Positions 898-23,170 of a stretch of 64,000 nt of DNA are shown here, in pieces. Every line of letters starts with the position of its first letter. Position 1 is the stretch's first letter. The DNA comes from an uncultured Bacteroidia bacterium (GTDB lineage: Bacteria; Bacteroidota; Bacteroidia; Bacteroidales; UBA932), in assembly GCA_902790635.1 (NCBI GenBank), contig CADASN010000003.1:151026-215025 (forward strand). Direction: 5' to 3'. The translations under genes were made by a program, and so were the position numbers. The notes beneath the pieces are model-generated. The model worked only from the letters and a program-made list of their open reading frames with translations, did not search any database and was not told the origin of the DNA.

Positions 898-922
898 AAC
901 ATAGAAATGCAATAAACTGAAT

Positions 923-2236: not shown

Positions 2237-2237
2237 T

Positions 2238-2921
2238 ATGTTGGCCAGAAAGTATCTTTCCGAGGTTGTCTCGGTCAAGAACCCTTTCTCCGGGATTTAT
2301 ACCGTGGAATTCAAGTCCCTGGAGCGTCCGTACAAATACGATCCGGGGCAGTTCCTGCACATCGCTGTCGATGAAGACTATGATGGCATCGGCCAATGGC
2401 CGGAATCCCGCTGTTTCTCGATGCAGAGCGACCCTGCGGAGGAGGTAATCCGTATCACGTATGCAGTCAAGGGAGCCTTCACCCAGGAGATGGAACGGGT
2501 GCTGAAGCCGGGCCGCGAGGTCTGGTTGAAGCTGCCGTTCGGGGAGCTTTTCACACAGCCGCACAGCAAGGAGAATACGGTATTCATCGCCGGAGGTACG
2601 GGAGTCACCCCGTTCCTGTCCTTGTTCACGCACGAGTCTTTTCGGGACTATGTCAATCCGAGAATCTATCTGGGATACAAGAACGAGGACTATTTCATTT
2701 ACCAGAAAGAACTTGCTGCGATTAAGAACGACAATGCCCGCATCACTGTCTTTTTCGAGAATAAGGATGGAGTGATAGATATTGCCAGAATCCATGACGA
2801 GAACGGGAATGACAGCAATTATTTCATTTCCGGTCCGCCGGTGATGATCAAGATTTTCAAGAATAAACTTATCGAACTGGGCGTTCCGCAGGAAAACGTT
2901 TTGACAGACGATTGGGAATAA
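2238..2921 (+). CDS. FAD/NAD(P)H reductase for the RfbH dehydrase, lacking the ferredoxin domain
   Basis: Ferredoxin-NADP reductase fold of 227 residues with the flavin-binding motif RCFSMQS, the nicotinamide motif GGTGVTPFLSL and a terminal SGPPVMI element. By position between rfbH and rfbG it should be the E3 partner (AscD/DdhD/RfbI) that passes electrons to RfbH. Characterised E3 proteins are about 330 residues with an N-terminal plant-type [2Fe-2S] ferredoxin domain; that domain is absent here and the frame starts directly with the flavin domain. It overlaps the rfbG start by one base (TAATG). Role is inferred from context and fold. Confidence 0.85.
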   Translation: MLARKYLSEVVSVKNPFSGIYTVEFKSLERPYKYDPGQFLHIAVDEDYDGIGQWPESRCFSMQSDPAEEVIRITYAVKGAFTQEMERVLKPGREVWLKLPFGELFTQPHSKENTVFIAGGTGVTPFLSLFTHESFRDYVNPRIYLGYKNEDYFIYQKELAAIKNDNARITVFFENKDGVIDIARIHDENGNDSNYFISGPPVMIKIFKNKLIELGVPQENVLTDDWE

Positions 2922-4006
2922 TGGAAACGGCATTCAACGATTTCTATAAGGGCAAACGCGTCCTTGTGACCGGCCATACCGGTTTCAAGGGAAGCTGGCT
3001 CTCGATCTGGCTTCACGAAATGGGGGCGGAAGTGGTTGGTATCGGGTTGGATCCTTATTCGGAAAAAGATAATTTCGTGCTCTCCGGCATCGGGGAGAAG
3101 ATACTGGCCGATATCCGTGCCGATATCCGGGACGGGGAGAAGATAAAAGAGATCTTCGCCACGTACCGCCCGGAGATTGTTTTCCATCTGGCCGCCCAGC
3201 CGCTGGTGCGCCTGAGCTATGAGATTCCGGTCGAGACCTACGAGACGAACGTGATGGGTACCATCCATGTGATGGAAGCCATCCGGGCGACGGACAGTGT
3301 CCGGGTCGGCGTGATGATCACGACGGACAAGTGCTACGAGAACAAAGAACAGTTGACCGGCTACAAGGAAGATGACCCGTTCGGGGGATATGATCCCTAT
3401 TCTTCCAGCAAGGGTGCCTGCGAGATTGCTATCCAATCGTGGCGGCGGAGTTATTTCAATCCTGCGGATTACGGTACCAAGCACCATATGAGCCTGGCCA
3501 GTGTCCGTGCCGGCAACGTGATTGGCGGAGGCGACTGGGCGAAGGACCGCATCATCCCGGATTGTGTCCGTGCGCTGGAGGCCGGAAAACCGATTGAAAT
3601 TCGCAGTCCCAGGTCCGTTCGCCCCTGGCAGCATGTTCTGGAGCCGCTCAGTGGCTATATGCTTCTTGCACAGAAGATGTGGAAGGACCCGACCGGGTAT
3701 TGCGAAGGTTGGAACTTTGGGCCTGAGCCGGATTCCGTCTTGACGGTCTGGGAGATGGCTTCCGCGATGGTGGACAGATTCGGATATGGAGAGTTGAAAG
3801 ATGTTTCCGATCCCACGGCATGGCATGAGGCGAAACTCCTGATGCTGGATATCAACAAGGCGAAGACCCGCTTGGGCTGGAGGCCCCGGCTGGACGCCCG
3901 GCAGTGCGTGACCTTGACAGCGGACTGGTACAAGCGGTACCAGGGTGAGGATGTATATAGCCTCTGCGCGGAACAGATAAAGGATTTCTACAAGAACAGG
4001 ATATGA
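2921..4006 (+). CDS. rfbG: CDP-glucose 4,6-dehydratase
   Basis: Extended short-chain dehydrogenase that converts CDP-glucose to CDP-4-keto-6-deoxyglucose. Motifs are TGHTGFKG (residues 17-24) for NAD+, TTDKCY around the active site and YDPYSSSKG with the catalytic Tyr-x3-Lys. The ATG at 2921 overlaps the preceding TAA by one base and is preferred over an in-frame TTG at 2912. The 361-residue length is typical. With rfbF, rfbH and the reductase it completes a set for CDP-4-keto-3,6-dideoxyglucose, although no dedicated downstream epimerase/reductase such as RfbE, RfbS or RfbJ follows directly. Confidence 0.94.
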   Translation: METAFNDFYKGKRVLVTGHTGFKGSWLSIWLHEMGAEVVGIGLDPYSEKDNFVLSGIGEKILADIRADIRDGEKIKEIFATYRPEIVFHLAAQPLVRLSYEIPVETYETNVMGTIHVMEAIRATDSVRVGVMITTDKCYENKEQLTGYKEDDPFGGYDPYSSSKGACEIAIQSWRRSYFNPADYGTKHHMSLASVRAGNVIGGGDWAKDRIIPDCVRALEAGKPIEIRSPRSVRPWQHVLEPLSGYMLLAQKMWKDPTGYCEGWNFGPEPDSVLTVWEMASAMVDRFGYGELKDVSDPTAWHEAKLLMLDINKAKTRLGWRPRLDARQCVTLTADWYKRYQGEDVYSLCAEQIKDFYKNRI

Positions 4007-4542
4007 TTGTACTGCAGGATTACGGCGTCACGCTGAAGCAGTTGACTCACGATAAGATCGAGATGGTCCGCCGGTGGCGGAACGATCCGAAAATCCAGAA
4101 GTATATGGAGTTTCGTGATGAGATCACGCCGGAGATGCAGGAGAACTGGTTCCGGAAGATATCTTCCGGCAATACTGACTACTATTTTATCATCGAGGCG
4201 GAAGGACGTGAGATCGGGCTGATCAATATCCGGAGTATTGATTATGACAAGAAAGAAGGCGAGCCCGGGATTTTCATCTATGATGATGATTTCCTGAATT
4301 CCGATTATTCTTTCCGCAGCAGTCTTTGCCTCCTGGATTTTGTTTTCGGTGAATTGGGCTTGGACCGTGTAGTCAGCCACATCATGCGGGACAATAAGCG
4401 GGCGATTGACTTCAATTTGTTTTGGGGCTATGTTTTGAGCCCCGGGCAGGAAGATGTTTTCAATCAGGAATATGTCTTGCAGAAAGAAGCATATTACAAA
4501 AAACGGGATAAACTGTCACGATTGTTTAAGAAGAAACAGTAA
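4003..4542 (+). CDS. GNAT-family N-acetyltransferase (PseH/RimJ-like)
   Basis: A 179-residue GNAT-fold protein with the early motif VRRWRNDPKIQKYM, common to PseH-like acetyltransferases of nucleotide-activated amino sugars and to RimJ/RimL enzymes. It overlaps the rfbG stop by four bases (ATGA) and precedes an acyl carrier protein gene, so it belongs to the operon. The acceptor is unknown: it could acetylate the 4-amino sugar made by the WecE-like enzyme at 13916, or transfer an acyl group prepared on the neighbouring carrier proteins. Confidence 0.75.
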   Translation: MIVLQDYGVTLKQLTHDKIEMVRRWRNDPKIQKYMEFRDEITPEMQENWFRKISSGNTDYYFIIEAEGREIGLINIRSIDYDKKEGEPGIFIYDDDFLNSDYSFRSSLCLLDFVFGELGLDRVVSHIMRDNKRAIDFNLFWGYVLSPGQEDVFNQEYVLQKEAYYKKRDKLSRLFKKKQ

Positions 4543-4547: not shown

Positions 4548-4778
4548 ATGGATTTAAACGATTTTATCAAGAATTTTGCGGAGCAGTTCGATGAGACGGA
4601 TCCATCCGAGATCCGTCCCGATACGGCCTTTCACGATCTCGAGGAGTATTCGTCCTTGATTGCTTTGTCTATCATTGCGATGATTGATGAAGAATATGAT
4701 GTGGTCCTGAAGGGCGACGACATGCGTTCTGCCGTGACCGTGGAGGATCTTTACAACATTGTCTGCAGTCGCGTTTAA
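4548..4778 (+). CDS. Acyl carrier protein-like (ACP 1)
   Basis: Small acidic protein of 76 residues with the four-helix acyl carrier pattern. The expected phosphopantetheine serine lies in EYSSLIAL (Ser36 by alignment with ACP 2). The Asp that normally precedes this Ser is replaced by Ser35, so it is a divergent carrier. It overlaps the next gene by one base (TAATG). A ketosynthase III and SDRs nearby suggest it carries a short acyl chain used to build or modify a sugar. Confidence 0.75.
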   Translation: MDLNDFIKNFAEQFDETDPSEIRPDTAFHDLEEYSSLIALSIIAMIDEEYDVVLKGDDMRSAVTVEDLYNIVCSRV

Positions 4779-5533
4779 TGGATCCGATGGTATCTCCTTT
4801 TTCTTTATCCGGCAAGACAATCCTGGTTACGGGCGCTTCGTCCGGCATCGGCCGGGCGGCGGCTGTTGAGTGCTCGAAGGCCGGGGCCAGGGTGGTGCTT
4901 ACCGCCCGGAACAGGGATCGTTTGCAGGAAAGCCTGGAAATGCTTTCCGGAGAAGGGCATTTGGTGCTCCCTTGCGATCTGGACAATGCAGAAGAGATTG
5001 CAGGCCTGGTCGCGGATCTCCCCGTCCTTCACGGTGTGATCAACAATGCCGGTTTTACCAAGATTTTACCCCTTCAGTTCATTGATGAGCAGTCATTCAA
5101 GGATATCCTGAGTGTCAATACGGTGGCGCCGGTCCTGTTGCTGAGGCTGTTGTTGAAGAAGAAGAAACTTGCGGCCGGTTCGTCCGTTGTGTTTACAAGT
5201 TCTCTTGCGGCTCTGGGACGGACTACGGTCGGGAATGGTATGTATACGGCCAGCAAAGGTGCAGTCAGTGCATTTGTCGCCTGTGCTGCCCTCGAGTTGT
5301 CCAAAAAAGGTATCCGCGTGAATGCTGTCTGTCCCGGGATGGTGGATACAGGAATCCTATCCAACGGGACCATCTCCGAAGAGCAGCTGGAGAAAGACAA
5401 AATGAATTATCCGCTTGGAAGATATGGAAAACCTGAGGAGATCGCTTGGGCAATGATTTACCTGTTGTCGGATGCGTCTTCCTGGGTGACCGGGACCAAT
5501 TTAATCATAGATGGAGGGTATTCCATCCGATAG
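4778..5533 (+). CDS. Short-chain dehydrogenase/reductase (FabG-like)
   Basis: Classical SDR of 251 residues: cofactor motif TGASSGIG (residues 18-25), NNAG motif, catalytic YTASK and a C-terminal GTNLIIDGGYS stretch. It most resembles 3-oxoacyl-ACP reductases. Between ACP 1 and a ketosynthase III it may reduce a 3-ketoacyl thioester, but a sugar substrate is also possible. Base composition is like the upstream genes; the more AT-rich segment begins just after this gene. Confidence 0.85.
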   Translation: MDPMVSPFSLSGKTILVTGASSGIGRAAAVECSKAGARVVLTARNRDRLQESLEMLSGEGHLVLPCDLDNAEEIAGLVADLPVLHGVINNAGFTKILPLQFIDEQSFKDILSVNTVAPVLLLRLLLKKKKLAAGSSVVFTSSLAALGRTTVGNGMYTASKGAVSAFVACAALELSKKGIRVNAVCPGMVDTGILSNGTISEEQLEKDKMNYPLGRYGKPEEIAWAMIYLLSDASSWVTGTNLIIDGGYSIR

Positions 5534-5538
5534 ATCCT

Positions 5539-6603
5539 ATGGCATTCTTACAAGTAAAGAACGTAGAGATTAAAGGCATAGCTACCTGTGTGCCCAAACA
5601 GGTTAAGGTTGCTAAGAAAATGCCTTACTTTACTGAGGTCGAGGCTGATAACTTTACCAATGTGACAGGCGTTGTGAGTTCGCATGTGGCTCCGGCAGAG
5701 ATGACCCTGTCTGATCTTTGTCAAGCTGCATCAGAGAAGTTGCTGGCAGAGTCTGGCTGGGAACGTGAGTCGATTGACTTAATAATGTTTGTCAGCACAT
5801 CACGTGACTTTTACATTTGTCCAAATACGTCAAATATCCTGCAAGATAAACTGGGGCTTCGCACAGAATGTGTGGCACTTGACTTGCCATTTGCCTGCTC
5901 AGGCTATGTATATGGTCTATCAGTCGCAGGAATGATGATGCAAAGCGGCCAGATTAAACGAGCATTGCTTTGTGTGGGTGAGATGACAAGCAAGAATCAA
6001 TCCCATTTAGATAAGACGGTTTGGTCATTGCATGGCGATGCCGGTTCTGCCACATTATTGGAGTATAACCCTAAAGCTAAGCATCCGATGCAATTTAATC
6101 TGGGTGGAGATGGCAGTGGTTGGGAAGCTATAATTTGTCGTGAGATGGGTGTCCGCAATATGACTACTGAGGAATCCCTCAAATATAAGAAGTATGAAGA
6201 AGGTGTAGAGCGTAACGCTACTCAATGCGCCATGGACGGCATGAGCGTGTTCTCATTTGCCATTACCCGACCGGGACAATGTATTAAAGGCCTTTGTGAA
6301 CATTTCGAGTTTGACCTTACCCAGATCGACTTTCTTCTGATTCATCAGGCCAATAAGATGATTGACGAGAAGATACGACACAAACTAAAATTGGCGCCAG
6401 AGCAGGTGCCGTATAGTATGACCTACTATGGTAATACCAGTTCCTGTACTATTCCTATCACCATGACGTCTAAGATTCGTGAACAGCTTTCTGCAAGAGA
6501 GAATGAGTTGGTTATGTGTGGTTTTGGTTCGGGTCTTTCTTGGGGCTCTGCCCATGTGTTTACGGATAGAATTATAAGCTTAGAACCCATTGAACTTGGT
6601 TGA
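5539..6603 (+). CDS. 3-oxoacyl-ACP synthase III (FabH-like ketosynthase)
   Basis: Thiolase-fold condensing enzyme of 354 residues. The catalytic triad is visible: Cys120 in LPFACSGY, His269 in LLIHQANK and Asn299 in YYGNTSS. FabH-type enzymes start chains by condensing an acyl-CoA with malonyl-ACP. The ATG at 5539 is chosen because it follows the previous stop closely and gives a normal FabH N-terminus; the frame is open further upstream inside the SDR. The DNA is clearly more AT-rich than the flanking genes. A role in making a short acyl group for the polysaccharide is inferred. Confidence 0.9.
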   Translation: MAFLQVKNVEIKGIATCVPKQVKVAKKMPYFTEVEADNFTNVTGVVSSHVAPAEMTLSDLCQAASEKLLAESGWERESIDLIMFVSTSRDFYICPNTSNILQDKLGLRTECVALDLPFACSGYVYGLSVAGMMMQSGQIKRALLCVGEMTSKNQSHLDKTVWSLHGDAGSATLLEYNPKAKHPMQFNLGGDGSGWEAIICREMGVRNMTTEESLKYKKYEEGVERNATQCAMDGMSVFSFAITRPGQCIKGLCEHFEFDLTQIDFLLIHQANKMIDEKIRHKLKLAPEQVPYSMTYYGNTSSCTIPITMTSKIREQLSARENELVMCGFGSGLSWGSAHVFTDRIISLEPIELG

Positions 6604-7370
6604 TGAAAGATCTAGAGAATAAAAATGCCATCGTTACAGGTGCTCGCACAGGTATCTGCCGTGCCGTTGTAGAGGCATATGCAGAGGCTGGTTGCAATGT
6701 ATGGGCGGTTGTACATCGCGATGACGATGCTTTCCTTGCTGATATGGAGGCACTTGCCAAGCGATGTGACGTGTGGATTAAAGTAGTTCATATTAATCTT
6801 GAAGACGAAGAGGATATCAAACGCGGAATGCGCGAGATAACCTCCGAGAAACTGCCTATCGACATCTTAGTTAATGGGGCAGGAGTAACCAGTCCAAGCA
6901 GATTGATTCTGATAACCTCTTTGAAGGATATGCACCGCGTGATGCAGGTCAATTTCTTTGCTGCTGTGCAAATGGCTCAACTTACTTTTAAAGTAATGAT
7001 GAGACAGAAGAGAGGAAGCATTATAAACATAGCAAGTATTGCAGGTATTGATGGCGATCTTTCTCAGCTTGAATATGGCGCAAGTAAAGCAGCCCTAATA
7101 TGTGCCACAAAGAAAATGGCTTACGAATGGGGCGACTTTGGGATCCGGGTTAATGCTATTGCACCGGGTATTATTGATACTAAAATGTTGGATGAAATGG
7201 AGACTCACGTTATTGAGGAACTTATCCGCAAGACTTCGCTTCATAGAGCAGGTAAACCTGGAGAGATTGCTCAACTGTGTGTGTTCTTGGGAAGCGATAA
7301 ATCCTCATATATCTCTTCAGAAACTATTCGCATAGATGGAGGGGGTTACAAATTTCGTTTCCACCTTTAA
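6603..7370 (+). CDS. Short-chain dehydrogenase/reductase
   Basis: SDR of 255 residues with cofactor motif TGARTGIC (residues 12-19; the third glycine of TGxxxGxG is Cys19), NGAG, catalytic YGASK and C-terminal ETIRIDGGG. The start at 6603 overlaps the ketosynthase stop by one base (TGATG), indicating translational coupling. It is a candidate ketoreductase acting after the ketosynthase. It shares the AT-rich composition of its neighbours and differs from the SDR at 4778, so the two are unlikely to be a recent duplication. Confidence 0.87.
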   Translation: MKDLENKNAIVTGARTGICRAVVEAYAEAGCNVWAVVHRDDDAFLADMEALAKRCDVWIKVVHINLEDEEDIKRGMREITSEKLPIDILVNGAGVTSPSRLILITSLKDMHRVMQVNFFAAVQMAQLTFKVMMRQKRGSIINIASIAGIDGDLSQLEYGASKAALICATKKMAYEWGDFGIRVNAIAPGIIDTKMLDEMETHVIEELIRKTSLHRAGKPGEIAQLCVFLGSDKSSYISSETIRIDGGGYKFRFHL

Positions 7371-7390
7371 GCATACAGAATTAAACCTTT

Positions 7391-8203
7391 ATGGAAGAAG
7401 CAAGGATCAAACAGAATGTCCTTGAGATGAAGCTCAAGGCTCTTGATATGGCGCTGAGCACCAGTTTTGGTGCGCATATCGGGGGCGGTTTCTCTGCTAT
7501 GGAGTTGATGGCTTGTCTCTATGAAGTGGCCAGTATTCCTTCCATGGCAGAGGAAAAGAGAGACAGAATCATTTTGAGTAAAGGTCACGGTGTGTTAGCT
7601 CTCTATACCGCTTTATGGCAAAAGGGCCTGATGACAGAAGAAGATCTGGCGACCTTTGAAACAGATGGAACACGGTTTCACGGTCATCCCCACCGCAATT
7701 TAGAGAAGGGTATTGAGTTCTCTGGTGGTAGCCTTGGTCTTGGCATTTCGTATGCGGTTGGAGTTGCCAAAGCTTGTAAGGATAAAGGCTTGAACAATAG
7801 AATCTATGTGATTCTGGGTGATGGCGAGATGGATGAGGGAATTGTTTGGGAAGCTTTAATGGCTATCACTAACTTTGGCTTGAATAATGTGACAGTTATT
7901 ATTGACCGCAACCAGTATCAGTTGGATGGTCCCACTTCAGATATTATGAATCTTCTTTCTATCGAAGACAAGATGAAAGCGTTCGGTTATGAAGTTGAGA
8001 CCGTGAACGGACATTCTATACCCGAACTGCTTGATACCCTCGGTAAGACATTTGATAAACCACATGCGGTCGTAGCCAATACAATCAAGGCCAACGGAAT
8101 ATCCTTCTTGATGAACAATAAGATTTCTCACCAGTGCGTATTACCCAGAAAGAAATACGAACTTGCCGTTGAAGAAATTAAAAAAGCTTACAATGGGGAA
8201 TAA
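7391..8203 (+). CDS. Transketolase-like, N-terminal (ThDP-binding) subunit
   Basis: The 270 residues correspond to the N-terminal third of transketolase. SKGHG (the early catalytic-region His) and the ThDP motif GDGEMDEG ending at a conserved Asn (IIDRN) are present. The remaining transketolase domains are encoded by the next gene, whose start overlaps this one by 11 bases, as in other split transketolases. Such pairs transfer two-carbon ketol units, and some occur in branched or extended sugar pathways. The partner aldehyde here is unknown. Confidence 0.92.
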   Translation: MEEARIKQNVLEMKLKALDMALSTSFGAHIGGGFSAMELMACLYEVASIPSMAEEKRDRIILSKGHGVLALYTALWQKGLMTEEDLATFETDGTRFHGHPHRNLEKGIEFSGGSLGLGISYAVGVAKACKDKGLNNRIYVILGDGEMDEGIVWEALMAITNFGLNNVTVIIDRNQYQLDGPTSDIMNLLSIEDKMKAFGYEVETVNGHSIPELLDTLGKTFDKPHAVVANTIKANGISFLMNNKISHQCVLPRKKYELAVEEIKKAYNGE

Positions 8204-9146
8204 TGTGAATTTCAAATTGATGTCAATGGCTGGCCAGGGGGGCAGTGTATTTGGAATCTCCCTCATTGAATTGATGAATCTGCGCAACGATCTGATGGTG
8301 CTGTCTAGTGATATGTCAACACCTGCTGGTCTTGACAGATTCAAAGCAGCATACCCGGAGCATTTTATGAATATGGGTATTGCGGAGCAGAATATGATAG
8401 GAACTGCTGCCGGACTTGCAGAAGAAGGGTATAAACCTATTTGCGTAGCCCAAGCCTGCTTTATCACCATGCGAAGTTTCGAACAGGTGAGACAGTATTG
8501 CGGCTATATGCAGATACCGATGGTAATCATTGGTATTGGTTCCGGTGTTTCTCTTCAGTATATGGGAAACACCCATTATGCCATTGAGGACTTGGCCTTG
8601 ATGCGCACGATTCCGGGGATGGAGGTGATTGCTCCATGCGATTCATACGAGGCTGTTTTGGCATTTGAATATGCAGTGAATAGCAAACATCCTGTGTATA
8701 TTCGTCTCTATGGTGGCCCCGCTATTCCTGGTATGTTTGACGAGGAGGTTACTTTTGAGTGTGGAAAAGCCATCAAGAAGAAAGAGGGCGCTGATGTGCA
8801 AATCATCGCAACAGGAAGCATGGTGGGTAACGCTCTGAAAGTGGCTGAAGATCTCGCTGCCGAAGGCATCTCGACCGAAGTATTGGATATGCATACCATC
8901 AAACCTCTGGATGCAGAGGCAATTGACATAAACAAGAAACTGATTGTTACCCTTGAGGAACACAATATAATAGGCGGTCTTGGGAGTGCGGTTGCTGATG
9001 TTTTGAGTCAGTACACCAACCATCCTAATCTGTTGAAGTTGGGAATCAACGACCATTTCATACCTGTGGGCAGTTATAAGTATCTGCTCCAACGGTGTGG
9101 GCTTGACATTGAAAGCGTTAAAAATGCAATAATCAATAATCTATAG
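8193..9146 (+). CDS. Transketolase-like, C-terminal subunit
   Basis: The 317-residue protein contains the pyrimidine-binding domain with the catalytic Glu in MGIAEQNMIG and the transketolase C-terminal domain. The ATG at 8193 overlaps the N-subunit gene by 11 bases; an in-frame TTG at 8163 would give a charged extension and is less likely. With the preceding subunit it should form a complete heteromeric enzyme. Its location between a ketosynthase/SDR pair and an ACP/ligase pair suggests specialised rather than pentose-phosphate use. Confidence 0.92.
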   Translation: MGNNVNFKLMSMAGQGGSVFGISLIELMNLRNDLMVLSSDMSTPAGLDRFKAAYPEHFMNMGIAEQNMIGTAAGLAEEGYKPICVAQACFITMRSFEQVRQYCGYMQIPMVIIGIGSGVSLQYMGNTHYAIEDLALMRTIPGMEVIAPCDSYEAVLAFEYAVNSKHPVYIRLYGGPAIPGMFDEEVTFECGKAIKKKEGADVQIIATGSMVGNALKVAEDLAAEGISTEVLDMHTIKPLDAEAIDINKKLIVTLEEHNIIGGLGSAVADVLSQYTNHPNLLKLGINDHFIPVGSYKYLLQRCGLDIESVKNAIINNL

Positions 9147-9155
9147 TATATTCAT

Positions 9156-9389
9156 ATGGATACCTTAGAAAAAGTCATTGAAATTGTCGCTATCACTTGC
9201 GACGTTGATAAGAGTGAAGTAACCGAAAGCAGCACGGTGGGTGATTTCCCTGCTTGGGATTCTGTAGGTCATCTCGGAATCTTGAGCAAAGTTGAGGAAG
9301 CGTTCGATATCAGTTTCGAGCCCGAGGAGATGATGGAGATTGAAGATGTAAAGGATATTGTTGATGCTGTAAACAATAAGCTTGCATAA
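9156..9389 (+). CDS. Acyl carrier protein (ACP 2)
   Basis: A 77-residue carrier protein with the canonical phosphopantetheine site AWDSVGHL (Ser36) and an acidic helix II. The stop overlaps the ligase start by one base (TAATG), so carrier and ligase are probably made in equal amounts. The ACP-ligase-LuxE/LuxC order parallels the tetronate genes rfbK-rfbL-rfbN of Vibrio cholerae O1 as I recall them. The AT-rich segment ends about here. Confidence 0.88.
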   Translation: MDTLEKVIEIVAITCDVDKSEVTESSTVGDFPAWDSVGHLGILSKVEEAFDISFEPEEMMEIEDVKDIVDAVNNKLA

Positions 9390-10837
9390 TGACAATCGAG
9401 GAGCAAATCTGTCAGAACGCAATCCGGCATCCGGCGAGTATTGCGTTGATTACACCGGAAGAGCAGGTGACGTATGCCCAGCTCTGGGAGCGTTGCTTGT
9501 TGGCCGCAACCAATGTGCGGCGGAAATACGGTTTGCAAAAGGGAGACAGGATCATCCTCGCCGCTTCCGCCAATATTGATTTCATCTACGCATATTTTGG
9601 TATCCATATGGCGGGCGGGGTCTGTGCCCCTATCGATCCGGACACCAACGAGACCCGATTCGAGCTCATCAAGAATTCGACGAAGCCGGTCTGCACGATG
9701 GGCGTGCTCCATAAAGTGGCGGGGACGCAGACGGCCCCTTTCAGCGAAGTGCTGACCCCTTGCGACAAGATAGATCCATATCAAACGCCCGATCCGGAGC
9801 AGATAGCCGATATCTTGTTCACTACAGGTACTACGGGAGCACCCAAGGGCGTTGCCTTGAATCATAAAAACCTGACAGCAGCCGCGCTCAACATCAATAC
9901 TTTCATCAAGAATACCGCTGAAGATGTGGAATTGTTGGCGTTGCCTGTAAGCCATTCGTTTGGTTTGGGACGCGTGCGCTGTGTCCTGTCAAAGGGGGGC
10001 TCCCTGGTTCTGCTCGGATCGTTTGCCAACATGAAGAAATTCTTCGAACAAATGGAGCGCTTCCATTGCACGGGCTTCGGCATGGTCCCTGCCAGCTGGG
10101 CTTACATCAAGAAGATGAGCGGAAGGAAGATCGGCGAATTCGCCGGGCAGCTGCGCTATATTGAGATCGGTAGTTCTTTTATGCCGATTCCCGACAAGGA
10201 GCTTCTTTGTGAGTTGTTGCCTGATACACGCATCTGCATGCACTATGGCCTGACCGAGGCCTCCCGCTCTGCCTTTATGGAGTTCCATTCTGAGCATGAC
10301 TACCTGAATACGGCCGGCAAGGCTTCACCCAATGTGGAGGTGAAAATCTTTGACACGGAAGGTAACGTGCTGCCGACAGGAGCAGAAGGAGAAGTCTGTG
10401 TCAAGGGTGAACACGTGACGTGCAGCTATTGGAATGAGACCCCGGAAAGATTTGCGAAAGACTTCTATGACGGCTATTTCCGTACCGGAGACTGTGGCTA
10501 TCTGGACGCCGAAGGCTATATCCATCTGAAGAGCCGCATCAAGGAAATGATCAACGTGGGTGGCAAGAAGGTGAGCCCGATGGAGGTGGAGGATATCCTG
10601 AATACGATCCCCGGCATTGAGGACTGTGCGTGTGTAGCCATGCCTGACCCGGAAGGGGTGATGGGCGAACTGGTGAAAGCTTTCATCGTAAGCAAAGACG
10701 GGAGCCTTACTGATGCTGCCATCATTGAGGCCCTGAGACCCAAGTTGGAAGCGTATAAACTTCCTGCCAGGATAGAACGCATTGACGCGATCCCCAAAAC
10801 CGCATCCGGGAAGGTTCAACGTCTTAAATTGAAATAA
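9389..10837 (+). CDS. Acyl-activating enzyme (AMP-forming acyl-ACP/CoA ligase)
   Basis: ANL-superfamily adenylating enzyme of 482 residues. Motifs in order: FTTGTTGAPKGV (phosphate loop), HYGLTEAS (adenine region), YFRTGDCGY (ribose-binding Asp), MINVGGKKVSP hinge and the C-terminal catalytic Lys in KTASGKVQRLK. It should activate a carboxylic acid as acyl-AMP and load ACP 2 or CoA. The coupled ACP gene upstream and the LuxE-LuxC gene five bases downstream suggest acid to acyl-ACP to aldehyde. The acid cannot be identified from sequence. Confidence 0.9.
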   Translation: MTIEEQICQNAIRHPASIALITPEEQVTYAQLWERCLLAATNVRRKYGLQKGDRIILAASANIDFIYAYFGIHMAGGVCAPIDPDTNETRFELIKNSTKPVCTMGVLHKVAGTQTAPFSEVLTPCDKIDPYQTPDPEQIADILFTTGTTGAPKGVALNHKNLTAAALNINTFIKNTAEDVELLALPVSHSFGLGRVRCVLSKGGSLVLLGSFANMKKFFEQMERFHCTGFGMVPASWAYIKKMSGRKIGEFAGQLRYIEIGSSFMPIPDKELLCELLPDTRICMHYGLTEASRSAFMEFHSEHDYLNTAGKASPNVEVKIFDTEGNVLPTGAEGEVCVKGEHVTCSYWNETPERFAKDFYDGYFRTGDCGYLDAEGYIHLKSRIKEMINVGGKKVSPMEVEDILNTIPGIEDCACVAMPDPEGVMGELVKAFIVSKDGSLTDAAIIEALRPKLEAYKLPARIERIDAIPKTASGKVQRLKLK

Positions 10838-10841
10838 AGAT

Positions 10842-13310
10842 ATGGAAGAGCAGATTTCCTACATGGATGAACTGTTCAGTTTGCCGGCGTATTCCGACAA
10901 TGAAGAGCAGCAAAGCCTGTATCTGAAAGCCTTGCAGGAGGAACTGGTGTTTCACTATGAGCATAATGAAATGTACCGTCAGTTCTGCGATCGTAAAGGC
11001 TTTGATCCCCGTAAGGAGATATCATCCCTGGAGGAAATCCCGCCGGTCGCCGTGAGCGTGTTCAAGGACTTGGGAATGGGACTGGCTTCCGTACCCAAGG
11101 AAGACATCAAACTGCGGCTTCAATCTTCCGCAACATCCGGAACTCCCAGCACCATCGTGGTAGATAAAATCACCTCCAAGCGTCAGGCCAAGGCCATGGT
11201 GAAGGTGATTCAGGAGGCCATTGGCCGGGAGCGCAAACCTTTTCTGGTGATGGATATTGATCCCCGGTCAGAATTCCGTGCGCTGCTGGGTGCCCGTTTC
11301 GCCGCCATCACCGGTTACCTGAATTTTGCGAGCAAGGCAGGTTATTTCCTCAAGGCAAAAGACGGCATATCGTACTTCGATGTGGAGGCCATGCAGGAAT
11401 ACGTGGCTTCGATCCCGGCGGACCAGCCTGTGGTCGTATTCGGCTTCACTTACATTCTCTATAGCAATGTGCTGAAAGCCATTCAGGAAAAGGGGATTGC
11501 AATCGCGCTGCCCAAAGGCTCCAAGATCATCCACATCGGTGGCTGGAAGAAACTGGAAAGCGAGAAGATCAGCAAGGAACTGTTCAACAAACAACTCGCA
11601 GCTTGTTTCGGCATCGATCCGGTGGATGTGATAGATATCTATGGCTTCACCGAACAGATGGGATTGAACTATCCCGACTGCCCTTGCGGTTGCAAGCATG
11701 AGTCCAGCTATGTGAAGGTGCTGGTGCGTGATGTCGTCACGAACAAAGTGCTTCCTGCGGGCGAAGAAGGTAAACTGGAGTTTATCACGCCTGTCCCGCA
11801 CAGTTATCCCGGCAATGTAGTGCTGACCGATGACCTGGGAATGATCATGGATGGTGAGTGCCCGTATGGCCGGCCCGGCAAACGGTTCAAGATCCTGGGC
11901 CGTTTGAAGAAAGCCGAGGTCAGAGGTTGCGGTGATATCCTTTCCAACAAACTCACTTTCCAGAAGCGTTCCACCGGGTCCGTAAGTGATGATAAACTGG
12001 AGATTCAGTACTTCCGGAATGAGATTGTAGAGGGGGAGACCCCGGAGAAGACCCTCCAAGGTATGATTGACACCTTGAAGGGTCAGTTGCCCTGGCTCCG
12101 CAAGCAGCCAATCGAGGCTTTGATCGGGCTCATCGATGCCGCAGCCCAGCGCTGGGCAAGCGATCCGAAGTACCAGTTCTTGAAAGACAAGGGCCTGCAT
12201 TTTCTGGCTGCATGGTGCGGCGAGCGCCATCTGAAAGAGATTGCGGAGTTCGGCCTGCGGGGCAATGTGGGGTATGCAGATGCGTACAGCCCGTTCCCGG
12301 ATTCTGCAAAACATCTGTTGAAAGCGAACTCACGTGGCCTCTGCTGCCACTGGATGGCGGGTAACGTGCAGATTCTGGGTCTTTTTGCATTGGTACAGTG
12401 CATCATGACCAAAAATGTGAACCTGCTGAAGGTGTCTTCTCACGATGATGGTGTATTTGCCAGTTTGTTGAGTGCCTTCGAGGGTTTGAGCTGTACCACG
12501 CCAAACGGCTCCACCATTGAGGGCAATGACCTGCTCAAGACCATGGGGGTGGTTTATTTCTCCCGGAATGCCGTGAAACTGGGTGAGCAAATGTCCCGGA
12601 ATGCTGATGTGCGGATTGCCTGGGGAGGGCGTGAAGCAGTAGAAACCGTTGCAGGTTATCCTTCCAGATATGATTGTGAGACGGTCATCTTCGGGCCGAA
12701 GCTTTCGTTCGCAGTTGTAAGCAAAGAAATGCTCACGGATGAGCAGGCTGCCAAGAAACTGGCCCGCCGTGTTTCCGTGGATGTTTCCGTATTTGACCAG
12801 ACCGGTTGCGCCTCTGCCCACAATCTCTTTGTGGAGAAGGGTGGCGCAGTAAGTCCCGGGAAGTTCTGTGAGATCCTGAATGAATCCATGGCGAAGACCG
12901 AGATTCAGATTCCGAAGCCTGCGATGTCTCCCGAACAGGTCTCTGCTATCCATTCCATCCGGGGTGTCTATGACTTCTGCGGAACAGCCATTGGCAGCGA
13001 AACCATGTCATACTCCATTTTGCTTGATGACAAAGACGAATTGCACAAGCCTGTTTATTCCCGTGTGCTGTTTGTGCACGCCGTAGATAGTATCATGCAG
13101 GCGGTCAAGCACGTCACCGATGACATTCAAACCATCGGCGTCGAAGCCCTGCCTGAGCAGGCTGTTGCCTTTGCGGAGGCCGCCACGCCGAAGGGTGCCG
13201 TACGCTTCCCGCAGATCGGCCGGATGCTCAACTTTGAGATGCCGTGGGATGGTATCGTTCTGATTGACAGGTTGGTAAAATGGAACACCCTGATGGGGCC
13301 CCTTTGCTAG
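10842..13310 (+). CDS. LuxE-LuxC fusion: acyl-protein synthetase / acyl-CoA reductase
   Basis: The 822 residues contain two fused halves of the bacterial fatty-acid reductase complex. Residues about 1-395 are LuxE/PaaK-like, with SSATSGTPSTIV near residue 95. Residues about 400-822 are LuxC-like, with the nucleophilic Cys656 in FDQTGCASAHN. Such complexes reduce an activated acyl group to an aldehyde with NADPH. No luciferase is nearby, so bioluminescence is excluded. The V. cholerae O1 O-antigen protein RfbN, involved in tetronate synthesis, has the same fusion as I recall. Here the aldehyde could feed the transketolase or be reduced further; this is inference. Confidence 0.88.
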   Translation: MEEQISYMDELFSLPAYSDNEEQQSLYLKALQEELVFHYEHNEMYRQFCDRKGFDPRKEISSLEEIPPVAVSVFKDLGMGLASVPKEDIKLRLQSSATSGTPSTIVVDKITSKRQAKAMVKVIQEAIGRERKPFLVMDIDPRSEFRALLGARFAAITGYLNFASKAGYFLKAKDGISYFDVEAMQEYVASIPADQPVVVFGFTYILYSNVLKAIQEKGIAIALPKGSKIIHIGGWKKLESEKISKELFNKQLAACFGIDPVDVIDIYGFTEQMGLNYPDCPCGCKHESSYVKVLVRDVVTNKVLPAGEEGKLEFITPVPHSYPGNVVLTDDLGMIMDGECPYGRPGKRFKILGRLKKAEVRGCGDILSNKLTFQKRSTGSVSDDKLEIQYFRNEIVEGETPEKTLQGMIDTLKGQLPWLRKQPIEALIGLIDAAAQRWASDPKYQFLKDKGLHFLAAWCGERHLKEIAEFGLRGNVGYADAYSPFPDSAKHLLKANSRGLCCHWMAGNVQILGLFALVQCIMTKNVNLLKVSSHDDGVFASLLSAFEGLSCTTPNGSTIEGNDLLKTMGVVYFSRNAVKLGEQMSRNADVRIAWGGREAVETVAGYPSRYDCETVIFGPKLSFAVVSKEMLTDEQAAKKLARRVSVDVSVFDQTGCASAHNLFVEKGGAVSPGKFCEILNESMAKTEIQIPKPAMSPEQVSAIHSIRGVYDFCGTAIGSETMSYSILLDDKDELHKPVYSRVLFVHAVDSIMQAVKHVTDDIQTIGVEALPEQAVAFAEAATPKGAVRFPQIGRMLNFEMPWDGIVLIDRLVKWNTLMGPLC

Positions 13311-13904
13311 ATGATCGTAGAGAGAGTAATAAACAGCGTTTTTACTTCCAATACCTATATTCTGCACGAAGAAGGAGGGTTGGATTATTGGCTGGTTGAT
13401 ATCGGTGATGTGGAGCCCGTATCCGCCTTGCTTCCGGAAGGTGCCAGACTGCGCGGACTGTTGCTGACCCATACGCATTACGACCATATGTACGGAATCA
13501 ACCGTTTGGTTTCCCTCTTTCCGGATTGTGTCGTTTATACTTCGGAGCATGGCCGGGAAGGCCTGTATTCGGATAAGTTAAATAACTCCCGATACCATTA
13601 CGATAAGTTGATTTACGCGCGGGAAGACAATGTCCGTGTCCTGCATGAGGGAGACCTTGTCCCTTTGTGGGCTGGATGTGAAGCGGAAGTTTTTGAGACG
13701 CCAGGGCACGATTGGAGTTGTCTGGTTTATCGGATTGGCACCAGAGTCTTTTCCGGGGATTCCTTCATTCCCGGCATTAAAGTGAAGGCCACTTTCCCAA
13801 AAAGTGACAAGACCGAAGCCGCCGAATCAGAACAGAGAATCCGGGAACTGGCCTCAGGGCTGACGGTATATCCCGGGCATGGTGAGTCAAGCATGATCGA
13901 TTAA
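13311..13904 (+). CDS. MBL-fold metallo-hydrolase
   Basis: Metallo-beta-lactamase-fold protein of 197 residues with the metal motif HTHYDH and further ligands in GHDWS, FSGDSF and YPGHGES, the pattern of glyoxalase II-like thioesterases. It starts immediately after the LuxE-LuxC stop. A thioesterase that clears misloaded acyl-ACP or releases a product would fit, but the substrate is not shown. It is the last gene of the acyl module. Confidence 0.85.
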   Translation: MIVERVINSVFTSNTYILHEEGGLDYWLVDIGDVEPVSALLPEGARLRGLLLTHTHYDHMYGINRLVSLFPDCVVYTSEHGREGLYSDKLNNSRYHYDKLIYAREDNVRVLHEGDLVPLWAGCEAEVFETPGHDWSCLVYRIGTRVFSGDSFIPGIKVKATFPKSDKTEAAESEQRIRELASGLTVYPGHGESSMID

Positions 13905-13915: not shown

Positions 13916-15052
13916 ATGTTTATCCCCTTCAATAAACCGTTCCTCACCGGAAAAGAGGCGCACTATATGTACCAGGCCGTCTATACCGGGAAACTGTCCG
14001 GAAACGGTGTATTTACCAAGAGATGCCAGCAGTTCTTCGAAGAACGCTATGGCCTCAGGAAATGCCTGATGACAACCTCCGGAACAGATGCGTTGGAGAT
14101 GGCTGCCATTCTGTGCGATGTCCGTCCTGGCGATGAGGTCATCGTCCCTTCCTATACTTTCGTGTCAACGGCGTTGGCATTTGTCCGGCAAGGTGCAAAG
14201 ATCGTTTTTGCAGACAGTTGCGAAGACAATCCCAACATCGACCCCGGGAAGCTGGAGGCTTTGATTACGGAGCGGACCAAGGTGATCGTTCCGGTCCATT
14301 ATGCGGGCGTGGCGTGCGATATGGACGTGATCATGGACATTGCCGACCGTCATCACCTGTTTGTGGTCGAGGATGCTGCGCAGGCGATAGATTCTTATTA
14401 TAAAGGACGTCCGCTTGGCGGAATCGGCCATTTCGGCTGTTTCTCTTTCCATGAGACCAAGAATGTTACGGCCGGTGGCGAAGGAGGCCTTCTGGCCATC
14501 AATGACGAGCGTTTCATCCGCCGTGCGGAGATCATTTGGGAGAAAGGTACCAACCGGGCTGAGTTTTTCCGGGGGATGGTGAACAAATACGGGTGGGTGG
14601 ATACCGGATCCTCATTCCTCCCGTCCGAGATCAATAGCGCTTTCCTCTGGGCCCAGTTGGAGAGCCTGACAGAGATCCAGGCCTGCCGTAAGGCTTTGTG
14701 GAAGCAGTATCATGAAGGGTTGAAGGACTTGGCGGAATCCGGTTATTTCCAGATGCCGGTCATTCCCGGGTATGCTACCAACAACGCCCATATGTTCTAC
14801 CTGGTTTGCCGGAGTCTCGAGGAGCGGACACGGTTGATTGCTTTCCTGAAAGAAAACGAAGTCAATGCCGTCTTCCACTATTTGAGTCTGCACAAGAGTG
14901 ACTATTACCGTTCTATTTCAGAATCAATCCCGGATCTTCCGAATTGCGACCGCTATGCTGACTGCCTGGTCCGGTTGCCGATGTTTTTCGATCTTAAGAC
15001 GGAAGAAGTGGGGCGTATCATAGATTTGATTCGGAAGTTTTATGTCGGATAA
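13916..15052 (+). CDS. wecE: dTDP-4-amino-4,6-dideoxygalactose transaminase (WecE-like)
   Basis: DegT/DnrJ/EryC1 aminotransferase of 378 residues, closely resembling WecE/RffA: the N-terminus FIPFNKPFLTGKE is characteristic and the PLP lysine is Lys182 in HETKNVTAGGEGG. It would convert dTDP-4-keto-6-deoxyglucose to dTDP-4-amino-4,6-dideoxygalactose. The keto sugar is also the RmlB product, and rmlD just outside implies it is available. Its 3' end overlaps the ArnC-like glycosyltransferase by 11 bases. Confidence 0.92.
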   Translation: MFIPFNKPFLTGKEAHYMYQAVYTGKLSGNGVFTKRCQQFFEERYGLRKCLMTTSGTDALEMAAILCDVRPGDEVIVPSYTFVSTALAFVRQGAKIVFADSCEDNPNIDPGKLEALITERTKVIVPVHYAGVACDMDVIMDIADRHHLFVVEDAAQAIDSYYKGRPLGGIGHFGCFSFHETKNVTAGGEGGLLAINDERFIRRAEIIWEKGTNRAEFFRGMVNKYGWVDTGSSFLPSEINSAFLWAQLESLTEIQACRKALWKQYHEGLKDLAESGYFQMPVIPGYATNNAHMFYLVCRSLEERTRLIAFLKENEVNAVFHYLSLHKSDYYRSISESIPDLPNCDRYADCLVRLPMFFDLKTEEVGRIIDLIRKFYVG

Positions 15053-15995
15053 GCAGCATCAGCATCCGCACATCTCCATCGTCTCTCCGGTCTATATGGG
15101 GGAGAAAATGGTGCATGAATTGGTCTCGCGGATCCGGGAGAGTGTGTCCGGGATTACGGAAGATTTCGATATTATCCTGGTCAATGATTGTTCTCCCGAC
15201 GATTCCTGGACGATGGTCCTCAAGGAATGTGCGGAAGACAAACGGGTGAAAGGTATTAATCTCAGTCGCAATTTCGGGCAGCACAAGGCTATCCGGGCCG
15301 GGTTGGAATTCGCTTTTGGAGACTGGGTAGTTGTGATGGATTGCGATCTGCAGGACCGGCCGGAGGAGATTGTCAAGATGTACGAAAAAGCCCAGGAGGG
15401 ATATGATATCGTGCAGGGAGAAAGGATGGAGCGCAAGGACAAGTTCTTCAAGAGACTCTCATCCCGGCTTTTCAATGCATTCTTCAGCAGTCTGAGTGGA
15501 GTAAAGACGAACAACAAAATTGCCAATTTCGGGGTTTACCGGCAGAGTGCCATCGAGGCGGTCCGCAGGATTCCGGAACGGGACAGTTCTTTCGGCTCTT
15601 TGCTCAACCAGGTTGGTTTCAAGACGGTTTCAATCCCTATTGAACATGGTTCCCGGGCAGAGGGGCGGTCATCTTACTCTTTGCGGAAGCTCCTGGACCT
15701 GGCCTCCGGCTTCATTATCACGAACTCCAACAAACCGCTTCGTGTGATGGTCGGAATCGGTTTTGCCCTGTCCCTGGTCTCTATCCTGGTGGCTTTGTAT
15801 AATGTGATTGCCTATTTCTTTGGATTAATCAAGGTGCCGGGATATACCACGACCGTTTTTTCTATCTGGTTGCTGGGAGGATTGATAATGATGCAGTTGG
15901 GTATTGTGGGCATCTATATCGGAAGGGTCTTCGATCAGGTGAAGGGCCGGCCGTTGTATGTTGTCCGGGACAAAGTCAATGTGGAGGATGAATAA
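15042..15995 (+). CDS. Polyprenyl-phosphate glycosyltransferase (ArnC/GtrB-like GT2)
   Basis: GT2 enzyme of 317 residues: N-terminal GT-A domain with VNDCSPDDSW and the metal motif MDCDLQD, an amphipathic region, and two C-terminal membrane helices (about 230-300). This is the layout of DPM1/GtrB/ArnC, which attach a sugar to undecaprenyl phosphate at the cytoplasmic face. The WecE-like gene before it and the ArnE/ArnF-like pair after it suggest that a 4-amino-4,6-dideoxy sugar is linked to the lipid for export. Confidence 0.9.
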   Translation: MSDKQHQHPHISIVSPVYMGEKMVHELVSRIRESVSGITEDFDIILVNDCSPDDSWTMVLKECAEDKRVKGINLSRNFGQHKAIRAGLEFAFGDWVVVMDCDLQDRPEEIVKMYEKAQEGYDIVQGERMERKDKFFKRLSSRLFNAFFSSLSGVKTNNKIANFGVYRQSAIEAVRRIPERDSSFGSLLNQVGFKTVSIPIEHGSRAEGRSSYSLRKLLDLASGFIITNSNKPLRVMVGIGFALSLVSILVALYNVIAYFFGLIKVPGYTTTVFSIWLLGGLIMMQLGIVGIYIGRVFDQVKGRPLYVVRDKVNVEDE

Positions 15996-16356
15996 GACGG
16001 ATACTTCTGCAGGATGGCGTTGGTCGTCAATTCTATTGTTGGTGACGGCCTTCCTGATTTATTCTTCTACCGGTGTTTTTTCCAAACTGGCATCTGCAGA
16101 AGAATTCCTGTCCATGGGATATCTGTTGCGCTTCGGTCTGGTTATCCTGGCGCTTGGTGTGTATGCAGTCCTCTGGCAAATCATCCTGAAACGGTTTCCG
16201 CTTTCCCGGGCATACCTTTACAAAAGCATGACGGTCATCTTCTCATTGGCTTTTGCATTCTTCTTTTTTGGAGAACAGATTACAGTGCAGAATATCCTGG
16301 GGGCGGTGTTGATCATTTGCGGGATTATTGTCAACTCTACAGGGAGGAACGTATGA
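15988..16356 (+). CDS. ArnE/ArnF-like (EamA/SMR fold) membrane protein, subunit 1
   Basis: About 122 residues with four predicted membrane helices, one half of an EamA/DMT fold, like the ArnE and ArnF subunits that flip undecaprenyl-phosphate-aminoarabinose. The ATG at 15988 overlaps the preceding gene; an in-frame ATG at 15958 would put a polar extension before the first helix. The next gene is a second protein of the same kind, overlapping by four bases, so the two probably form a heterodimeric flippase. Confidence 0.8.
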   Translation: MNKTDTSAGWRWSSILLLVTAFLIYSSTGVFSKLASAEEFLSMGYLLRFGLVILALGVYAVLWQIILKRFPLSRAYLYKSMTVIFSLAFAFFFFGEQITVQNILGAVLIICGIIVNSTGRNV

Positions 16357-16688
16357 TCTTCTACCTTATCGTGATTCTGGGCGTCCTGGCCAGTTCCGCT
16401 TCACAGCTTTTACTCAAGAAGAGTGCTTCCGTGGAGCATCGTTCTCCCGTTTTCACGCTGTTGAACTGGCGGGTCATCCTGGCGTATTCCGTGATGGCAA
16501 TAGTCCTTGTGACGAATATTTTCGCCATGAGCAAGGGCGTCCAGCTGAAGGATATGCCGATCCTGGAGGCCACCGGGTATATATTCGTGCCGCTCCTGAC
16601 CTGGCTGATCCTTCATGAACGGATTGACAGGAGGACGCTGGCTTCAATTGGGCTCATTTTGGCAGGTATTGTGGTTTTTTATCTATAG
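16353..16688 (+). CDS. ArnE/ArnF-like (EamA/SMR fold) membrane protein, subunit 2
   Basis: A 111-residue, four-helix membrane protein starting MIFYLIVILGVLASSASQ and coupled to subunit 1 through ATGA. The pairing of two half-size EamA proteins beside an ArnC-like transferase is the ArnC-ArnE-ArnF arrangement without ArnA, ArnB or ArnT. Likely role is moving the undecaprenyl-linked amino sugar to the periplasmic side. Evidence is hydropathy and gene order. Confidence 0.8.
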   Translation: MIFYLIVILGVLASSASQLLLKKSASVEHRSPVFTLLNWRVILAYSVMAIVLVTNIFAMSKGVQLKDMPILEATGYIFVPLLTWLILHERIDRRTLASIGLILAGIVVFYL

Positions 16689-16703
16689 CATCATTTTTCT
16701 TCG

Positions 16704-20725: not shown

Positions 20726-20729
20726 TACC

Positions 20730-22505: not shown

Positions 22506-23170
22506 TGGATTCTCCCTTGCATCTGATCTGGGACCTGGATGGAACACTCGTCGATTCAGCGCCGGAGATTATCTCCACGATTGAAGAAGCGTTGAAGCGG
22601 TTCGGTGTACCGGCAAGATCGGCTGTCTCCCCTCTGCGGATCGGTCCGCCGGTGCGGGATGTTATCCGGAACTCATTCCCGTCTGAAGTGTTGCCAGATA
22701 CAGAGCTGGACGAGGTTGTGCATGCTTTCCGCGAGATATACGATTCTTCTGATTATGAGCGGACGATCCCTTTCCCGGGCATGGATGAATTGATTCACAA
22801 TCCGCATTTCGTCCACCATGTCATTACAAACAAACCCGCGTATGCCACGAACCGGATTTTGGACAAGAAGGGCTGGTGCGGGCAGATTATCGAAGTGCTG
22901 ACGCCAGATACGCTTTTGCACGAAGATGGAATGCCGTATAAGAAGCCGGAATTGTTCTGCCATTGCCGACAGGAATATCCTTCGGCGCGGATGATCGGCA
23001 TCGGGGATATGGCTCCGGATGCCCTGGCGGCATTGGCAGCCGGGATGATTCCGGTCGGTGTATTGTGGGGGACTGGTACTCGGGAAGAATTGAAGTCCGC
23101 AGGTTGCCGGTATCTGGTGCAGGACGGCGAAGAATTATTGGCATTGCTGAATTGGCTGGAATATGAGTAG
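22502..23170 (+). CDS. HAD-superfamily hydrolase (phosphoglycolate phosphatase-like)
   Basis: A 222-residue HAD phosphatase with motif I DLDGTLVDS (nucleophile Asp11, acid/base Asp13), an alpha-helical cap, a TNKP motif II region, KKPE motif III and GIGDMAPD motif IV. It overlaps the ThDP gene by four bases and the next gene by eight, so it is translationally coupled. It may remove a phosphate from an intermediate of the aldolase/ThDP pathway. Confidence 0.85.
   Translation: MMDSPLHLIWDLDGTLVDSAPEIISTIEEALKRFGVPARSAVSPLRIGPPVRDVIRNSFPSEVLPDTELDEVVHAFREIYDSSDYERTIPFPGMDELIHNPHFVHHVITNKPAYATNRILDKKGWCGQIIEVLTPDTLLHEDGMPYKKPELFCHCRQEYPSARMIGIGDMAPDALAALAAGMIPVGVLWGTGTREELKSAGCRYLVQDGEELLALLNWLEYE

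Follow-up and report, generated by a model that had tools for sequence, protein, structure and literature searches.

A ten-gene block at 4548-13904 of the 64,000-nt window (the whole stretch of DNA that was analyzed, in which the coordinates of the block and its neighbors are counted) could well make an unusual acyl group with which an amino sugar in a surface polysaccharide is decorated, by way of an acid that is reduced to an aldehyde and then extended by a ketol unit. We give this reading, which was drawn from sequence, about an even chance of being right. It is built on the gene set, the intact catalytic residues, a transketolase (TK) whose acceptor pocket appears rewritten, the modular gain and loss of genes in other genomes, and the neighboring genes. 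The TK most likely extends the aldehyde, as had been surmised in an earlier note on this DNA, since its pocket is altered, it abuts the acid-to-aldehyde core in many genomes, and in the loci compared it did not occur with a near Fe-alcohol dehydrogenase (Fe-ADH).

The ten-gene block and its neighbors

All ten genes lie on the plus strand, and with refined starts the gaps between them range from -11 to +20 bp (Table 1), which bears out the near-zero gaps described earlier. The most likely starts of the ketosynthase (KSIII) and of the TK C subunit (TK-C) are ATG 5539 (354 aa) and ATG 8193 (317 aa); the scans of Pfam families and PDB chains were run with later starts at 5572 and 8217, respectively. 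The N subunit (TK-N) is 270 aa, and both subunits have transketolase domains only. Active-site residues of LuxE, LuxC, KSIII and the MBL hydrolase look intact. Cys363 of LuxE and one Cys of LuxC align with Cys in 7xc6, and we take these aligned residues to be catalytic. The 4 solved-structure matches listed for the MBL hydrolase were all hydroxyacylglutathione hydrolase/glyoxalase II types; in other clusters, a PF00975 thioesterase adjoins LuxE.

Table 1. Genes of the block and the genes directly beside it, with positions in the window
Feature	Position	Strand	Basis
GNAT acyltransferase, PseH-like	4003..4542	+	PF13302; TIGR03585 71.8 bits, below cut-off of 93.1
ACP1	4548..4778	+	PF00550; Ser motif EYSSL, common to most homologues
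SDR1, FabG-like 3-oxoacyl reductase	4778..5533	+	PF13561
KSIII, FabH-like	5539..6603	+	PF08545/PF08541; Cys-His-Asn intact; Cys at FabH Phe87 position
SDR2, putative reductase	6600..7370	+	Pfam SDR family; placed in SDR2 tree
Split transketolase N subunit (ThDP diphosphate domain)	7391..8203	+	PF00456; nearest solved chain 6yak
Split transketolase C subunit	8193..9146	+	PF02779+PF02780
ACP2	9156..9389	+	PF00550; motif WDSVGHL
AMP-forming acyl ligase, candidate ACP2 loader	9389..10837	+	PF00501+PF13193
LuxE-LuxC fusion	10842..13310	+	PF04443 (371.8 bits) + PF05893 (251.7 bits)
GloB-like MBL hydrolase, putative thioesterase or editing enzyme	13311..13904	+	PF00753; motif HTHYDH
WecE-type sugar 4-aminotransferase	13916..15052	+	NF008687 567.9 bits, cut-off 375

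An ACP, the ligase and the LuxE-LuxC fusion stand in one run with the layout of the V. cholerae O1 tetronate genes (VC0248-VC0252, rfbKLMN...), whose individual products are assigned here as we presume them to be. This likeness had been pointed out in the earlier note; it was borne out, and the layout supports a tetronate-type acid-to-aldehyde core. Proteins of Vibrio fortis (L073), 38-46% identical to those of the window, served as a proxy for the V. cholerae genes. In the Vibrio layout, Fe-ADH lies between the ligase and LuxE-LuxC, and V. fortis has it as well, whereas the gap there is 4 bp in the window and holds no Fe-ADH; the window has SDR2 and the split TK instead. The available text of PMC3441752 has the V. 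cholerae genes serving the N-acyl group of perosamine, an N-acyl on a 4-amino-4,6-dideoxy sugar, and we propose a product of the same type for the window. Bioluminescence-type lux genes were rejected, the fusion being only distantly like LuxE (E 1.1e-20) and LuxC (E 6.8e-17), and no luciferase family was found among the 30 window proteins scanned.

Directly upstream of the block, at 118-4006, are CDP-3,6-dideoxyhexose genes; models for rfbF, rfbH and CDP-glucose 4,6-dehydratase (TIGR02623, NF011936 and TIGR02622) score over their cut-offs. Such genes could offer the TK a different acceptor, namely a keto sugar such as the CDP-4-keto-3,6-dideoxyhexose of this pathway, to which the enzyme would add a C2 branch as YerE does for yersiniose. 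For miharamycin and amipurimycin, keto-sugar branching by split TKs has been proposed, according to the accessible part of PMC12247030. However, YerE is a decarboxylase-type enzyme and not a TK, and no such enzyme was found beside the CDP-3,6-dideoxyhexose genes: the enzyme of the block is TK-type, and of the window genes scanned (to 30.7 kb) just one, at 20730-22505, encodes a decarboxylase-type ThDP enzyme. Moreover, the matches listed for 26 TK loci (described below) included no homologue of rfbF or of an FNR-like reductase, and those to rfbH and rfbG were just 24-31% identical. A keto-sugar branch, which would also leave the link to LuxE-LuxC unexplained, is in our judgment very unlikely.

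Immediately 3' of the block, the WecE-type aminotransferase is followed by glycosyltransferase and acyltransferase genes. The stretch at 15042-19090 resembles a lipid-linked sugar decoration branch: it encodes an ArnC/PgfS-like GT2, an EamA/ArnE-like small membrane protein (below cut-off), an acyltransferase 3 and a GT87-type glycosyltransferase. An HMGL-type aldolase, a decarboxylase-type ThDP enzyme, a HAD phosphatase and an epimerase stand in a row at 19118-24059; homologues of this ThDP enzyme and epimerase (50% and 40% identical, respectively) are present near LuxE-LuxC in Roseburia faecis (L111).

The earlier note proposed a new polyol or higher sugar as the product; in such a scheme, it would arise in free form by reduction of the ketol product and be built into the polymer unchanged. 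TK and SDR2 chemistry would, judging from the enzyme families, give a polyol. Nevertheless, no polyol kinase or nucleotidyltransferase was recognized inside the block, the related Vibrio module makes an N-acyl group (PMC3441752, text available in part), and the neighbors of the TK are of another kind. Among the matches listed, N-acyltransferase candidates (GNAT, WecD-like, PglD-like or hexapeptide) were present at 15 of the 18 TK loci for which 8 kb of sequence was available to either side, and DegT aminotransferases at 12 of these 18; neither was found at any of 7 ordinary-TK loci, the sole control set. Homologues of the WecE-type aminotransferase (65-74% identical) lie near LuxE in L087, L109 and L162, and a GNAT homologue 53% identical to that of the window lies directly 5' of acp1 in L163. 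With neighbors of these two kinds, N-acyltransferase candidates and sugar aminotransferases, a modified acyl group is the better fit and would be expected rather than a polyol or higher sugar, which was not supported and which we regard as unlikely.

Active site of the split transketolase

For both TK chains, the best solved match was the Carboxydothermus split transketolase (6yaj/6yak). With residues numbered as in E. coli TktA, the window enzyme has the ThDP/Mg motif GDG...N, the catalytic Glu (E411), and equivalents of H26, H66, H100, H261 and H473, the His residues that we take to position ThDP and the donor hydroxyketone. In contrast, the phosphate/hydroxyaldehyde residues H461, D469 and R520 are replaced in TK-C by G, M and G. 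In the phmmer alignment, GEDG and RLGR of the Carboxydothermus enzyme correspond to QYMG and RLYG of the window at the D469 and R520 regions; the R358 equivalent is variable and falls at the edge of the alignment.

The same pattern was found in the LuxE-linked TKs among the matches listed, counted as one TK per locus with the second TKs of L107 and L119 set aside. E411 was kept in 27 of 27 TK-C sequences and H473 in 26, H461 and D469 were lost in all 27, and 25 had no Arg at R520 or in the next column. The 2 exceptions, L107 and L119, have an Arg in the column after R520, as do ordinary split TKs, in which the R520-equivalent Arg falls one column on in the alignment. Among the LuxE-linked TK-N sequences listed, leaving out L101 with its short TK-N (160 aa), H26, H66 and H261 were kept in 26/26 and H100 in 25/26. 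The comparison set comprised 29 TKs from the best-scoring loci of a split-TK search, and H461 and D469 were kept in 27 of them; L038 and L044, the exceptions, are altered TKs in loci of about 4 kb without Lux genes.

These data suggest an enzyme that is like TK in fold and catalysis and that, since the H461, D469 and R520 equivalents are lost, would not be a pentose-phosphate TK. Its donor end looks TK-like and its acceptor/phosphate end does not, as if the acceptor pocket had been rewritten. E. coli TK has been engineered at S385, D469 and R520 to move from phosphorylated to unphosphorylated aldehydes, as described in the available portion of PMC5073344. If our reading is true, nature altered TK at sites that were also picked in enzyme engineering to fit unphosphorylated aldehydes.

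Two other assignments of the enzyme were considered. A pentose-phosphate TK displaced into the operon was rejected on account of the lost acceptor-side residues. A pyruvate donor, as for DXS, is disfavored, H100 and H261 being kept; E. coli DXS has Phe aligned at both positions, and H100L has been used for pyruvate donors (PMC10787763, in the part of the text available).

A profile of the LuxE-linked TK-C was run on 393 Bacteroidales genomes, and 6 others scored above 400 bits, followed by a gap down to 335 bits. Four of the 6 had LuxE-LuxC, and one, L161, was the L052 genome again. L165 and L166 had no LuxE-LuxC within about 9 kb, so the trio of sdr2 and the 2 TK genes also occurs without LuxC. 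In L166, the trio stands with ACPs, two ligases, a GNAT and an MBOAT. In L165, the trio (7051-11364), with altered pocket, lies beside an FkbH-type protein, and an MBOAT acyltransferase is present at 4946-6397. No Lux genes were found in 7 lower-scoring TK loci (335 bits or below), which were taken from many, not in strict rank order, one of them from a 4.7-kb contig.

That L165 and L166 have the altered TK together with acyl genes and lack a LuxC nearby would also suit loading of the naphthyridinomycin/dnacin type, in which the C2 unit is glycolyl. Here, the two-component TK would pass its C2 unit to ACP1 with KSIII, and no aldehyde acceptor would be involved. As far as the available text of PMC7570522 goes, the clusters of dnacin and naphthyridinomycin both contain a two-component TK along with an ACP and a KASIII, the DinS component is 754 aa, and the unit comes from pentulose phosphate. 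However, no TK component of about 750 aa is present in the window, whose two subunits together are 270 + 317 aa, and the window TK has lost its phosphate-side residues. Among the matches listed, KSIII was near just 9 of 26 TK loci, some of which are cut short, while the TK abuts LuxE, the ligase or ACP2 in 21 of 26. We therefore view C2 loading as quite unlikely and favor extension of an aldehyde.

Distribution and modular exchange

The earlier note had suggested a search for conservation of the whole block, and the block was conserved in distant genomes and not in near ones. No comparable LuxE-LuxC was found in the 60 genomes closest to that of the window; weak matches were present in 17 of them, the best at E 2.5e-10. 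At E 1e-20, LuxE-LuxC matched in 5 of 395 genomes of the phylum, the window's own included. The other 4 have a separate LuxE, with LuxC beside it in 3, and the fourth locus ends there. L062 and L072 carry acp1-sdr1-ksIII-sdr2-tkN-tkC-acp2-lig-luxEC in the same order as the window, L052, L057 and L163 have similar runs, and in the Bacillota locus L055 parts of the block are present in changed order. A second LuxE lineage, with separate LuxE and LuxC and about 35% identity in LuxE, occurs in both Bacteroidota and Bacillota and carries tkN-tkC with a ligase, often with sdr2 and an ACP. Because the block is found almost entire and in the same order in distant Bacteroidota, in part or rearranged in Bacillota, and not in the 60 nearest genomes, it looks horizontally spread and modular. 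Many source genomes of the loci are titled as gut or rumen.

Two of these loci differ in small features. A glyoxalase-fold (VOC) protein lies between tkC and sdr2 in L049 (7140-7553) and L055 (7135-7554), with Pfam run on the L055 copy only. No MBL hydrolase was found in either locus, the L055 contig ending soon after luxEC. The sdr1 of L049 (3605-4304) consists of two overlapping open frames and may be broken or a sequence error.

Gene content near LuxE was compared in the best 80 of at least 594 pattern matches from a LuxE-alignment scan of named genomes, and the following counts refer to this set. Fe-ADH was within 1.5 kb of LuxE in 18 of the 80 loci and a split TK within 6 kb in 26, and no locus had a near Fe-ADH and a TK together. 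L050 departs from this in part: along with its TK, it has an Fe-ADH, though at a distance of 5.2 kb from LuxE, where it lies beside a LicD gene. SDR2 was found with TK in 18/26 and with near Fe-ADH in 0/18; TK had no SDR2 within 6 kb in 8 loci. SDR2 alone was present in 13, a decarboxylase-type ThDP enzyme in 6, and none of TK, Fe-ADH, SDR2 or decarboxylase-type ThDP enzyme in 17. At 21 of the 26 TK loci, no more than 150 bp separated the TK from an ACP, ligase or Lux gene, which argues that its linkage to the core is more than chance. Among the named strains, Hallella seregens ATCC 51272 (L110) has a TK in its locus, and Bacteroides luti DSM 26991 (L059) has none. The Fisher p for exclusion between Fe-ADH and TK was 3.7e-4, a value that overstates independence because the Fe-ADH loci form almost a single clade on the LuxE-LuxC tree (2 changes).

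That tree was made from 31 loci with LuxE-LuxC of at least 780 aa, the window being entered as its first 400 residues, and a locus was labeled as lacking TK when none lay within 8 kb. The TK label changed 7 times, at least 6 of them forced by well-supported branches, and 10 TK and 6 SDR2-only proteins were intermixed in one group. The repeated changes and this intermixing suggest that the TK supplements a single type of aldehyde-making system. The SDR2 tree, from which L051 was omitted for its length, tracked TK presence, with 3 changes compared to 10.3 in shuffles.

L052 and L053 show such an exchange most clearly. At the DNA level, both flanks are 90-95% identical, whereas the sequence that separates the end of acp1 from acp2 has been exchanged, and TK is present in L052 alone. 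Within the swapped stretch, sdr1, sdr2 and two ksIII share just 47-58% identity, and their order has partly changed. Outside it, the proteins are 96% (aminotransferase), 86% (GNAT), 82% (ACP1), 91% (ACP2), 88% (ligase) and 97% (LuxE-LuxC) identical, and five downstream proteins are 92-94% identical. The 2 loci also differ in a short stretch 3' of luxEC, where L052 has remnants of MBL and dehydrogenase genes.

Polysaccharide loci are recombination hot spots, and unrelated acyl, aldehyde and sugar modules could simply have come to stand side by side. The loci are indeed mosaics, and DNA-level similarity between the window and L049 is confined to acp2-lig-luxEC. Yet genes of these modules are neighbors again and again, in two LuxE lineages and in two phyla, the SDR2 tree agrees with TK presence as described, and the boundaries of the L052/L053 swap fall at the two ACP genes. 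Chance juxtaposition is, in light of these findings, highly improbable, and we prefer modules that work in one pathway.

Proposed route and precedents

The acid, donor, step order and product of this pathway are what we infer. The closest relatives point to the acid. In L048, L049 and L050, whose LuxE-LuxC are 87-89% identical to that of the window, a malate dehydrogenase adjoins luxEC or mbl; each passes TIGR01763 and is the sole such match in its assembly, for which completeness was not given. L052 has a decayed copy after luxEC and an intact copy elsewhere. L068, as close to the window, has none within 8 kb, and the window block has none either, its genome having one over-cut-off LDH/MDH match elsewhere. 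Because malate dehydrogenase stands beside the block in the closest relatives, the acid is most likely malate or another 2-hydroxy acid. Lactate was also considered. Lactate dehydrogenases have Gln at a site at which malate dehydrogenases have Arg, and the LDH/MDH proteins near LuxE whose motif was compared have Arg (L048-L050, L092, L099, L100, L102 and L120; L127 is cut off), which disfavors lactate. Yet the related dehydrogenase of L100 passes the L-LDH cut-off, and different loci may therefore use different acids.

We propose that the ligase would load this acid on ACP2, from which the acyl group would pass to LuxE Cys363 and be reduced to the aldehyde by LuxC. The split TK would add a two-carbon ketol unit, the donor probably being hydroxypyruvate or another unphosphorylated compound, and SDR2 would reduce the new ketone or, in clusters without TK, the aldehyde. 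After renewed activation of the remaining carboxyl, the chain may grow on ACP1 by an optional Claisen extension with KSIII and SDR1, and the GNAT would move the acyl group from ACP1 to the 4-amino sugar from the WecE-type aminotransferase, an N-acylation.

The Cys-His-Asn of KSIII was kept in 18 of 18 sequences (the window and 17 loci, one per locus), and none of the 18 has Phe at the FabH Phe87 position. With no Phe there, KSIII would suit starters other than acetyl. According to the text available from PMC6519341, Flavobacterium psychrophilum has been proposed to make a 3,5-dihydroxyhexanoyl group and put it in place by means of an ACP, two KAS, one reductase and PglD. Likened by that description, wfpC-G and the window share an ACP, a 3-ketoacyl-ACP synthase, a ketoacyl reductase and an N-acyltransferase nearby: in the window, the ACP, KASIII with Cys-His-Asn and reductase lie beside the GNAT. 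The window differs in having a GNAT and not PglD, one KSIII, and a coupling to LuxE-LuxC and TK. The earlier note had called the ketosynthase an addition to the tetronate-type genes. This was half right, as ACP, KAS, reductase and N-acyltransferase together form a described O-antigen acyl module (PMC6519341, same portion).

Azinomycin offers a precedent for the extension. The accessible part of PMC9570651 describes a transketolase, AziC5/C6, that extends a semialdehyde by two carbons; we read it as a split TK from the two-gene name. As in the proposed route, a carboxyl is activated, reduced to a semialdehyde and extended by a C2 TK reaction. The likeness is at the level of chemistry: azinomycin uses an N-acetylglutamyl phosphate route toward an antibiotic amino acid, whereas the window has an ACP and LuxE-LuxC in a polysaccharide locus. 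The earlier statement that no described pathway was known with this exact gene set held for that set, of which no description was found in the literature searched, a weak negative with most subscription journals outside its scope; C2 extension of a semialdehyde by a transketolase, in contrast, is described for azinomycin. The core chemistry would thus be known, and the gene combination seems, tentatively, to differ from described systems.

We also consider a more elaborate scheme, which is possible but doubtful. The two ACPs would bracket a hybrid line of reduction, ThDP ketol transfer, re-activation and FabH-type condensation that gives a polyhydroxylated acyl group of about 6-8 carbons on the amino sugar, and the surface type would change by swaps of the cassette between the ACPs. 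Two complete split-TK pairs lie near one LuxE-LuxC in L107 (3090-7573) and in L119 (12279-15916), as if two ketol units were added. If the route is true, gut and rumen bacteria diversify surface acyl groups by modular C-C chemistry (carboxyl to aldehyde to ketol transfer), O-antigen structures could be predicted and tested for loci of this kind, and the enzymes would serve as natural biocatalysts.

A different set was seen in L102, L109, L116 and L126, in which a decarboxylase-type ThDP enzyme, a NeuB-type synthase, an ACP, a ligase and LuxE-LuxC stand in a row, with a thioesterase in 3 of the 4. This is possibly another aldehyde-extension route, with PEP or pyruvate.
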